Positions 42,503 through 44,278 of a stretch of DNA of 63,985 nucleotides are shown in pieces. The position numbers and the translations under genes are program-made. The notes beneath the pieces were generated by a model. The model was not told where the DNA came from, made no database searches, and saw nothing but the letters and a program-made list of their open reading frames with translations. The first letter of the stretch is position 1. Every line of letters starts with the position of its first letter. Source of the DNA: Anaerohalosphaeraceae bacterium (GTDB taxonomy: Bacteria; Planctomycetota; Phycisphaerae; Sedimentisphaerales; Anaerohalosphaeraceae); assembly GCA_037479115.1 (NCBI GenBank), contig JBBFLK010000017.1:1-63985 (forward strand), read 5' to 3'.

Positions 42503-42538
42503 AAAAAAACCCGGCCGATTGCAGGGCCGGGTTTTTTA
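42503..42538. terminator. Bidirectional terminator between ftsK and the ParA gene
   Basis: AAACCCGGCC-GATTGCAG-GGCCGGGTTT, a 10-bp stem with A-run and T-run on either side. It serves ftsK (+) and the ParA-CBM48 gene (-). Confidence 0.88.
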
Positions 42539-42558: not shown

Positions 42559-43791
42559 CTACTTGACGTGCAGGACGGAATTGTATTCTCCGAACGGATT
42601 GGGCTCGGCGTTTTCGTTGTAGGGGTCCTGCTGCCACTGGCCGTCCACAACCAGCCGATACCGGTAGGTTCCCTTGTTGAGCGGGAGCTTGAGAATCCAC
42701 TTGCCGTTTTCGCCGGCCCGCTGCATCGGGGTTTGTTCCGGAATCCAGTCGTTGAAGTCGCCGGCAATCTGGACGGTCTTGGCCCGCGGATACAGGGTCG
42801 AGAAGATGACCGTATCGCCTTCCTGACGAACACCGTAGAAGTCGGCGATTTTCTCTTCGAAGGTGCGGGTGTCCCTGGGCTGCGGCGCTGCAGCGGAGAC
42901 CGCCGCGGGTTCTTCCGCCGCCTTGCGGGGTTCTTTGATGGTAGCCAGCAGTTCTTCGGCGCTGGCGCTGATGGACTGGAGGCGTGCCTCGAGGGTATCA
43001 ACCAGTTCAGCCTTGTGAACCAATGTATCGGTGCCGATCAGCTCCTCAGCCAGATTGAGAAAATCTTTATACCCCTTGCTGGCCGGGTCGTATTCGCTGA
43101 TGGGCTGTCCAAGGCTGGCGGCTTCCTTCAGTTTGGTATTGAAGTTGACAACCGTCTGGAACATCCGGTCGCCGAAGTGCTTGCGAAGCTCCGCCAGAAT
43201 CTCGCGTCCCATTTTGGTGCGAATGTCATACATGCTGGCCAGCACCATCAGGTTGACCTTCTGCCGGCACTGTTCGCAGAGTACCTGAAGGGTTTCCAGC
43301 TGTTTGCTGAGGCCGTGCAGAGAAAAGTAGCCCATCTCGACCGGCACAATCACATCGGAAGCCGCCCGCAGGGCATTGAAGGTCAGCAGCCCCACCGACG
43401 GAGGACAGTCGATAATCACATAATCGTAATCGGCCCGGACCTCCTCGAGAACGGATTTAAGGCAGTTTTCCCGGTCCATAATGCCGGACATTTGGGATTC
43501 AAAGGCTGCCAGGTCTATGCTGGAGGGGGCCAGTTCGAACCGCTCACTGATTTGCCAGAGAATTTCCTTGAGCCGAAGCGGCTCACCGCGTGCTTTGCCG
43601 ATTAAGACATCATAAATGCTCTGTTCAATCTGCTCTTCGGGGACGGCCAGACCGACCGCACAGTGGGACTGCGGGTCCAAATCCACCAAAAGTGTCCGAT
43701 ATCCTTTGGCAGCCAGGGCACTGGAGAGGTTGATGGCAACTGTTGTCTTCCCGCATCCGCCCTTTTGATTGATGATGGCTACGGTTCTCAT
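42559..43791 (-). CDS. ParA-family ATPase fused to a CBM48/AMPK-beta glycogen-binding domain
   Basis: 410 residues. The N-terminal ParA/MinD domain (about 1-250) has the deviant Walker A NQKGGCGKTTVAIN near residues 8-21, VDLDPQ, and VIIDCPPSVG as Walker B. A helical linker with Ala/Pro (about 250-315) follows. The last 90 residues form an E-set carbohydrate-binding domain: AKTVQIAGDFNDW, WILKLPLNKGTYRYRLVVDG and NPFGEYNSV are AMPK-beta/CBM48 signatures. ATG 43791 has GGGAG upstream. No ParB gene is beside it, so it may position something other than the chromosome. Confidence 0.9.
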   Translation of the reverse strand: MRTVAIINQKGGCGKTTVAINLSSALAAKGYRTLLVDLDPQSHCAVGLAVPEEQIEQSIYDVLIGKARGEPLRLKEILWQISERFELAPSSIDLAAFESQMSGIMDRENCLKSVLEEVRADYDYVIIDCPPSVGLLTFNALRAASDVIVPVEMGYFSLHGLSKQLETLQVLCEQCRQKVNLMVLASMYDIRTKMGREILAELRKHFGDRMFQTVVNFNTKLKEAASLGQPISEYDPASKGYKDFLNLAEELIGTDTLVHKAELVDTLEARLQSISASAEELLATIKEPRKAAEEPAAVSAAAPQPRDTRTFEEKIADFYGVRQEGDTVIFSTLYPRAKTVQIAGDFNDWIPEQTPMQRAGENGKWILKLPLNKGTYRYRLVVDGQWQQDPYNENAEPNPFGEYNSVLHVK

Positions 43792-44074
43792 AGAAACTCC
43801 CTTTTCTAAGTCCCGCAAGGGGTTGCTGTTTTTTGGCGTTCGTATCTTAATTTTCGTCAAACTATGGCGGAATCTTTAGTTTTTTATCGGACAAAAAAAG
43901 AAAAAAGCCGTTTTTAATATTAAGAAGGGGGCCTATTTGGAGACATTGGGACTCTGATTCATTCCGTAAGCAGCCGGAAAAAAGTAGATGATTTTGCGGC
44001 CGTTTGCCGATAAAATAGGAGGTTTATTCCTGCTGAAAAGGTTTGATTCAGAGGAAAATCAGGAGATTGCAGAG

Positions 44075-44278
44075 ATGACGGAAGAACAAATCATCCAATG
44101 GATGTACGAGAAGATTAAACGGGACGGTTTTACAAACGCTACGTCGCTGGCGGAAAGTTTTCTGCAGGAACACCGAATTACGGATGTTCTGGACCCGGCA
44201 TTTTCCCTGACATTGGATGTCGGGTTTAAGGTAGCCCAAGAAATCAAAGACCGGCAAATGGCCTCATTTGCCAGCTAA
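44075..44278 (+). CDS. Small acidic protein, unknown
   Basis: 67 residues, soluble, mostly helical (TEEQIIQWMYEKIKRDGFTN). It is divergent from the ParA-CBM48 gene. GGAG stands 9 bases before ATG 44075; an ATG at 43988 would add 29 residues with no ribosome site. No known family. The 283-bp gap to the ParA start holds no other gene. Confidence 0.6.
   Translation: MTEEQIIQWMYEKIKRDGFTNATSLAESFLQEHRITDVLDPAFSLTLDVGFKVAQEIKDRQMASFAS

Follow-up and report, generated by a model that had tools for sequence, protein, structure and literature searches.

What would a ParA-type ATPase do with a glycogen-binding domain of its own? The cargoes named in passages of PMC10241942 for ParA/MinD ATPases are DNA, carboxysomes, chemoreceptor clusters, flagella and the division site. 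The gene that raised the question lies in a stretch of 63,985 nucleotides from Anaerohalosphaeraceae bacterium (the window), part of contig C17 in a genome of 3.0 Mb. An initial annotation of this DNA had described a ParA ATPase joined to a CBM48/AMPK-beta domain, had placed the combination outside the known ParA classes and had suggested that it positions or segregates glycogen granules or ties partition to carbon stores.

Architecture of the fusion protein

The gene and its parts were delimited as follows.

42559-43791, minus strand: ParA-CBM48 fusion gene, 410 residues, with ATG at 43791 and stop at 42559-42561
43024-43791, minus strand: ParA ATPase domain, residues 1-256, with deviant Walker A motif KGGCGKTT (K10, K15), D37, D39 and Walker B D128
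42835-43023, minus strand: linker, residues 257-319, with a predicted helix at residues 263-286 and a low-confidence stretch at 290-304
42562-42834, minus strand: AMPK-beta/CBM48 glycogen-binding module, residues 320-410, with W349, R379, W386 and N404

The longest open reading frame in this frame starts at a TTG at 43860; the ATG at 43791 was taken as the start because the first strand of the ParA fold follows directly after it and because relatives align from there, the starts of the relatives' fusions having been picked by script. Pfam searches detected AAA_31 at residues 1-179 (E 1.7e-52), CBM_48 at residues 320-391 (37.0 bits against a cut-off of 22.4) and AMPK1_CBM (PF16561) at residues 337-410 (44.9 bits against a cut-off of 26.8). 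The best PDB chain was 8ray (E 4.1e-51), among Soj/ParA chains, and AMPK beta chains, including 1z0n, were also matched (E 3.5e-7). An AlphaFold model had a mean pLDDT of 89.1, with values below 50 only at residues 290-304, and Foldseek grouped the ATPase domain with Soj/ParA. These results indicated that 42559-43791 is an intact Soj-type ParA ATPase followed by a linker and an AMPK-beta/CBM48 module; the annotated fusion was borne out, with both domains above the Pfam cut-offs and confidently modelled.

The fusion resembles Soj/ParA (Thermus 1wcv, Helicobacter 6iub, 8ray) over the whole ATPase domain, in fold and in catalytic residues, but differs in having a C-terminal CBM48, in lacking an adjacent parB and in belonging to a separate clade. 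The C-terminal module is the same domain as the one with which AMPK beta (1z0n) binds glycogen in animals and has its main glucan-contact residues, but is fused to a ParA, outside any kinase. A full-text search of open-licence papers returned among its top matches no published fusion of a ParA with a glycogen-binding domain. Use of such a fusion in standard chromosome partition, which had been sought as a refutation of the initial annotation, was likewise not found among the open-licence matches listed.

Conservation of catalytic and glucan-contact residues

An alignment was made of 42 fusions, 24 from Planctomycetota (the window included) and 18 from other groups; it comprised 41 of 42 loci plus the window, L085 being omitted as near-identical. 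The ParA residues K10, K15, D37, D39 and D128 were present in 42/42 sequences, all of which had a KGGxGK[T/S] motif with the signature lysine and the A' and Walker B aspartates. Arginine was found at position 191 in 38 of the 42 and lysine or arginine at position 220 in 37. Mapped by eye, these are the positions of CcParA R195 and R224, which the relevant section of PMC7229837 gives as DNA-binding arginines of Caulobacter ParA. R191 and K220 are basic residues with a putative role in non-specific DNA binding.

The glucan-contact tryptophans W349 and W386 were each found in 42/42 fusions, position 379 was R or K in all 42, and N404 was present in 40. W349, R379, W386 and N404 correspond to W100, K126, W133 and N150 of AMPK beta1, N150 being what we take to be the glucan-contact position matched by N404. 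There were also differences from AMPK beta: the K126 position was mostly R, the L146 position was often F or Y, and T148 was not conserved. In the part of PMC2642990 concerned with glycogen binding, AMPK beta1 W100, K126, W133, L146 and T148 are reported to touch the sugar, and mutating such residues lowered glycogen binding. Loss of the glucan-binding aromatics had been set beforehand as the outcome that would tell against the annotation; both were present and nearly invariant, and the CBM of the fusion would be expected to bind glycogen.

Some distant Phycisphaerae copies of the module, such as L076 and L083, looked decayed by eye, as might be seen if the CBM had turned into a protein-protein module that binds no glucan. 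Against such a conversion, contact residues are kept at three positions in 42/42 fusions across phyla, and we consider it quite improbable.

Distribution and phylogeny of the fusion

Both domains were found at the locus, as one match or as two adjoining matches, in 31 of 40 related genomes (the window's own counted). Fragments only were present in G006, G022 and G025, and no fusion was detected in G007, G012, G015, G026, G031 or G035; three of these six, namely G026, G031 and G035, are assembled as single contigs. In a scan of 392 genomes of the phylum, 34 of 41 genomes of the class and 1 genome outside it matched at E <= 1e-60; these counts are of ParA matches, the CBM being read only at loci retrieved. 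Inspection by eye of 23 Phycisphaerae loci located the CBM at the end in 19, and it was absent from the other 4 (L068, L073, L075 and L077).

This range widened when named genomes were scanned with the CBM alignment. Of the 163 loci confirmed, the best 80 were taken, and 42 of these had ParA and CBM in one open frame. The closest named relatives in these 80 were MAGs labelled Phycisphaerae and Planctomycetota, and MAG labels among the 42 included Omnitrophota, Rokuibacteriota, Myxococcota, Deltaproteobacteria, Desulfobacterota, Auribacter, Zixiibacteriota, Gammaproteobacteria and Nitrospirota; the labels are those of the deposited records, and some MAG contigs may be misplaced. In Omnitrophota, a ParA match at E <= 1e-55 was obtained in 92/117 genomes and extended to the end of the CBM in 64/117. 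As read from the match rows, these 64 consist of 62 open full-length fusions, G503 (matched from residue 124) and G548 (interrupted by two stops); another 22 genomes, scored on long frames alone, lie outside the 64. The fusion is real and conserved. No published counterpart was found among the open-licence papers listed. The architecture is not rare but widespread in uncultured lineages.

A maximum-likelihood tree of 107 ParA domains separated 97 members of the fusion clade from 10 canonical ParAs (UFBoot 100, FastTree 0.997). The ParA domain of the fusion appeared as one clade apart from canonical ParAs, a result whose reach is limited by the use of only 10 canonical sequences. CBM was lacking in 6 of the 97; CBM-less members are L203, L213 and the four Phycisphaerae loci named above, so the module either disappeared from some lineages or was acquired repeatedly.

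Genomic context of the window's copy

Pfam analysis of the window neighbours detected no parB beside the fusion gene, as the initial annotation had noted. The ParB gene of this genome lies on another contig (C4:85539-85814, locus L308), and no parA was found beside it in the 3.3 kb read. A ParB gene without a parA neighbour would suit a fusion that serves as the chromosome ParA, working with an unlinked ParB and carrying the CBM as an add-on. This explanation has to contend with two other Soj-like ParAs without a CBM in the same genome, one of which clusters (UFBoot 100) with ParAs from two further Phycisphaerae genomes, with the separation of the fusion clade from canonical ParAs and with the absence of the fusion from the single-contig relatives G026, G031 and G035. 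We regard it as very improbable.

No operon around the window's copy was seen to be conserved between genera; enolase, a DivIC-like gene and ftsK were seen next to the fusion only within the genus, and a conserved operon was set aside. At 42510-42537 a G+C-rich hairpin with A and T runs at its flanks was seen by eye; it separates the end of ftsK from that of the fusion gene and is a possible terminator for both. No glucan gene lay beside the window's copy, and no cellulose synthesis locus was present among the seven window neighbours scanned with Pfam.

Alpha-glucan genes in relatives

Two genomes from a sister family (f2) were found to encode stand-alone CBM proteins, with 61.5% (91 residues) and 48% (100 residues) identity, counted against the tail of the fusion with its leading helix. 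In both genomes the gene for this protein adjoins a GH57 gene, followed by a gene for a glycogen-synthase-like glycosyltransferase. One of them, G034, additionally has a GH77 gene and another GH57 gene alongside, and the 61.5% paralogue lies between the GH57 and GH77 genes. These identities were assigned by Pfam for G034 only, and for the other genome (G024) by likeness and a GT5 match. The window genome itself has a row of GT, GH57 and debranching-enzyme genes on contig C2 (L193) and a small CBM protein on contig C12 (L192).

Similar enzymes were found close to the fusion in Omnitrophota, for which 22 neighbourhoods were read (20 from the top matches among the 64 genomes with the fusion, plus L122 and L106). 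In 9 of the 22, a GH57-family gene directly precedes c1, a gene encoding one of the motif proteins described below, and ParA-CBM; the GH57 call was made by Pfam on one of the nine (E 4.8e-64). The row at L122 also holds a motif-bearing DUF4912 protein and a GH57 branching enzyme.

Glycogen synthase was found in 62/64 Omnitrophota genomes with the fusion and in 41/53 without it. The association faded in genomes of at least 1.4 Mb (p 0.29, or 0.048 with the long-frame cases; phylogeny uncorrected) and may be mostly a genome-size effect; once genome size is considered, this co-occurrence is weak. Within the order, the fusion-less G026, G031 and G035 had either no GT5 or another GT5, and G012, without a fusion, yet retained a GT5 of the usual size.

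Overall, paralogy and gene context in relatives point to a probable alpha-glucan connection of ParA-CBM. The suggested tie to carbon stores gained support in this way, though not at the window itself; granules may be positioned or segregated. As some relatives adjoin enzymes of sugar stores, the fusion may position or sense the carbon store.

A role at the cell envelope was also considered. A passage of PMC9178275 describes BcsQ as a ParA homologue of cellulose synthesis, and ParA-CBM could in like manner aid an envelope polysaccharide machine, for alpha-glucan synthesis or export, at the pole or membrane. In the c1 product of Omnitrophota a hydrophobic stretch was noted by eye that probably spans the membrane, and an Alginate_exp-family gene lies near in 12 of the 22 Omnitrophota loci (Pfam on one), both of which would fit. 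GH57 and glycogen-synthase-like enzymes, however, are intracellular as a rule, and the Phycisphaerae neighbours read, few of which were Pfam-scanned, included no recognisable polysaccharide synthase gene and no recognisable secretion gene. An envelope role of this kind was judged improbable.

Adjacent proteins with a shared N-terminal motif

In many lineages an N-terminal motif, for example RGLEDISHLFLSS, ALDQLADLFLTG or IYEHLAKIYLD, is present in the protein encoded beside ParA-CBM. The motif of the Rokuibacteriota partner (L107), LGRGLEDVSHLFLS, is close to LGRGLEALLG in the N-terminus of the window genome's ParB, which begins MEAVMSSSKPKKPHLGRGLEALLGP. As described in portions of PMC7993993, PMC10241942 and PMC12462528, basic N-terminal peptides on unrelated domains activate the ATPase in ParA/MinD systems. 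Judged by its residues, the motif resembles the activating peptide of ParB, set on otherwise unrelated proteins, and an adjacent partner with an activating N-terminal peptide is likely in many relatives.

The remainder of these proteins differed widely. One type is akin to MinD/FlhG-like ATPases and has lost the P-loop (hhalign 98.8% with E 1.3e-16 in the best-scoring of four sets, 85-98% in the other three); the name FlhG for this domain is our own assignment. Another has a PD-(D/E)XK-like domain (model mff8ba70f6c9d, pLDDT 78.7), for which Foldseek matched NucS 2vld (E 9.4e-5, TM ~0.34) and no Pfam match was obtained among those scanned. An active nuclease was rejected for this type, ExK being absent from 8 aligned sequences by eye. 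A number of Phycisphaerae have the FlhG-like part fused to a relative of the PD-(D/E)XK domain (hhalign 94.7%). The other types are an HTH protein with a RodZ_C domain, the Omnitrophota c1 protein and a DUF4912 protein. The PD-(D/E)XK-like domain was seen in or beside partners downstream of ParA-CBM at L115, L107, L127, L140, L113, L130 and L123.

A strict form of the motif gave 29 matches in 228 sequences (1.84 Mb, six frames), the same gene in overlapping loci being counted repeatedly. Every match lay close to a ParA of the fusion clade, save the one at L211, where the neighbouring ParA has a CBM but did not enter the tree. Among 934 background frames, which are six-frame ORFs of at least 60 residues and in many cases not genes, the strict motif was found in none and a broad form in 15. 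Beside ParA, the broad form was present in 12/18 loci of family f1 (10 being the small divergent gene described below and the other 2 looking like chance), 3/4 of f5, 2/7 of other families of the order (both looking like chance), 18/33 of other Phycisphaerae, 23/30 of Omnitrophota and 7/19 of other loci, and beside canonical ParAs in 0/9. It was missing in 15/33 other Phycisphaerae, 7/30 Omnitrophota and 12/19 other loci, some of which had variants by eye; the broad pattern overlooks forms such as GHHFL, GARFL and VVQFYL. About six of the broad-form matches look like chance (L016, L030, L020, L021, L079 and L138), and the counts exclude fusion loci L022, L023, L083 and L267 and control L217, for which the script gave no ParA ORF.

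DUF4912 was matched in 75/117 Omnitrophota genomes. A motif-bearing DUF4912 protein was not supported as the rule for this group, the strict motif occurring in only one (L241, from the same genome as L122) of 30 DUF4912 loci; the motif scan spanned all 30 whole loci, with the DUF4912 frame itself located in part of them. A DUF4912 partner was absent from the window genome. A motif-bearing protein was observed at L312:7092-7850, convergent to the CBM-less clade member L213, which suggests that the partner may outlast the CBM.

A small divergent gene in the window's family

The locus also includes a short gene on the opposite strand.

44075-44278, plus strand: small divergent gene, 67 residues, conserved divergently upstream of the fusion in many genomes of the window's family, with an LAxxFL core

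The start codon common to relatives is at 44075, within a longer ORF at 43988-44278, and the small gene that the initial annotation had placed there is real. A profile search detected a divergent gene of about 60-70 residues in the six members of the genus and in eight other genomes; the remaining loci then examined gave one chance-level match and otherwise none. Its constant part is A..LA..FL, with L25 in 16/16 rows (14 genomes) and A26, F29 and L30 in 15/16, the exception being a cut copy. LA[DEKR].[FY]L occurred in 2 of the 934 background ORFs, one of them the small gene itself, and the likeness to the partner motif was noticed post hoc and involves few residues.

No full-size partner was found beside ParA-CBM in the window's family. 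In the window genome, the single match of profile A2 was a MinD/FlhG-like ATPase at C5:98273, and hence a full-size partner was not found there. The 67-residue product may be the true partner of ParA-CBM in this family, a proposal that we rate as quite possible but somewhat short of an even chance.

Proposed positioning or sensing of glycogen

The best reading of these data is a ParA-type system that acts on glycogen through its own glycogen-binding tail; we hold it tentatively, at a little less than an even chance. In ATP-bound dimers, the ParA domains would attach to the nucleoid and the two CBM48 modules would hold glycogen, or alpha-glucan-coated enzymes or particles. ATP hydrolysis and release would be triggered by a partner whose N-terminus carries a short basic peptide, and glycogen would thereby be spread over, or kept on, the nucleoid and shared out at division. 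The partner would be the product of the adjacent motif-bearing gene in many relatives, with the 67-residue divergent product as the candidate in the window's family. Points against this reading are the window neighbourhood, which has no glucan gene and differs between genera, the CBM-less clade members, the changes at K126 and T148, the missing motif proteins and the fading association with glycogen synthase in Omnitrophota.

The main rival is that the CBM senses glycogen or branched oligosaccharides and tunes a ParA ATPase that positions other cargo through its partners. The same domain is also an allosteric sensor in AMPK, according to a section of PMC2642990, and the partners vary widely by lineage (membrane protein, pseudonuclease, HTH protein), to which varied cargo is better suited than a single cargo. 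The interdomain linker, however, ranges from about 12 to 354 residues across the 42 fusions, a variability that suits tethering better than allostery, and alpha-glucan enzymes stand in the same row in some lineages. A glycogen-sensing ParA fits almost as well as glycogen positioning, even though such gating is, taken as a whole, unlikely. Both readings predict alpha-glucan binding; they differ on the effect of glycogen on the ATPase and on glycogen movement.

The positioning reading has precedents in McdAB, PomXYZ and PpfA-TlpT, in which, according to parts of PMC10241942 and PMC7993993, a ParA-like ATPase works with a partner that has a basic activating N-terminal peptide. The N-termini of the partners in ParA-CBM relatives look alike in kind. 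Unlike in those systems, a possible cargo-binding module is on the ParA-CBM ATPase itself, and the partners belong to other families (FlhG-like without a P-loop, pseudonuclease, membrane protein, DUF4912). ParA-CBM may represent an undescribed, widespread ParA-type system with a storage polysaccharide as cargo and an interchangeable partner family, sharing one N-terminal motif, that drives the motor; we view this broader proposal as possible but doubtful. If it were true, a storage polymer would be a new class of cargo, carbon stores would be tied to the nucleoid and cell division, and bacteria would gain active placement and inheritance of a carbon store. The sensing version, if true, would amount to a spatial motor with a bacterial counterpart of the AMPK glycogen gate. 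The shared N-terminal motif would offer a simple handle for finding the partners of other orphan ParAs.

Additional observations at related loci

Two ParAs of the fusion kind were present in each of G424 (L200, L215), G427 (L201, L213), G429 (L219, L315) and G432 (L214, L203); in G427 and G432 one of the two was without a CBM. A MerR-type regulator was observed upstream of ParA-CBM at L113:4386-4916, L142:3581-4060 and L315:1783-2277 (Deltaproteobacteria, Nitrospirota and Gammaproteobacteria, respectively), identified by Pfam for L113 only and by likeness for L142 and L315.
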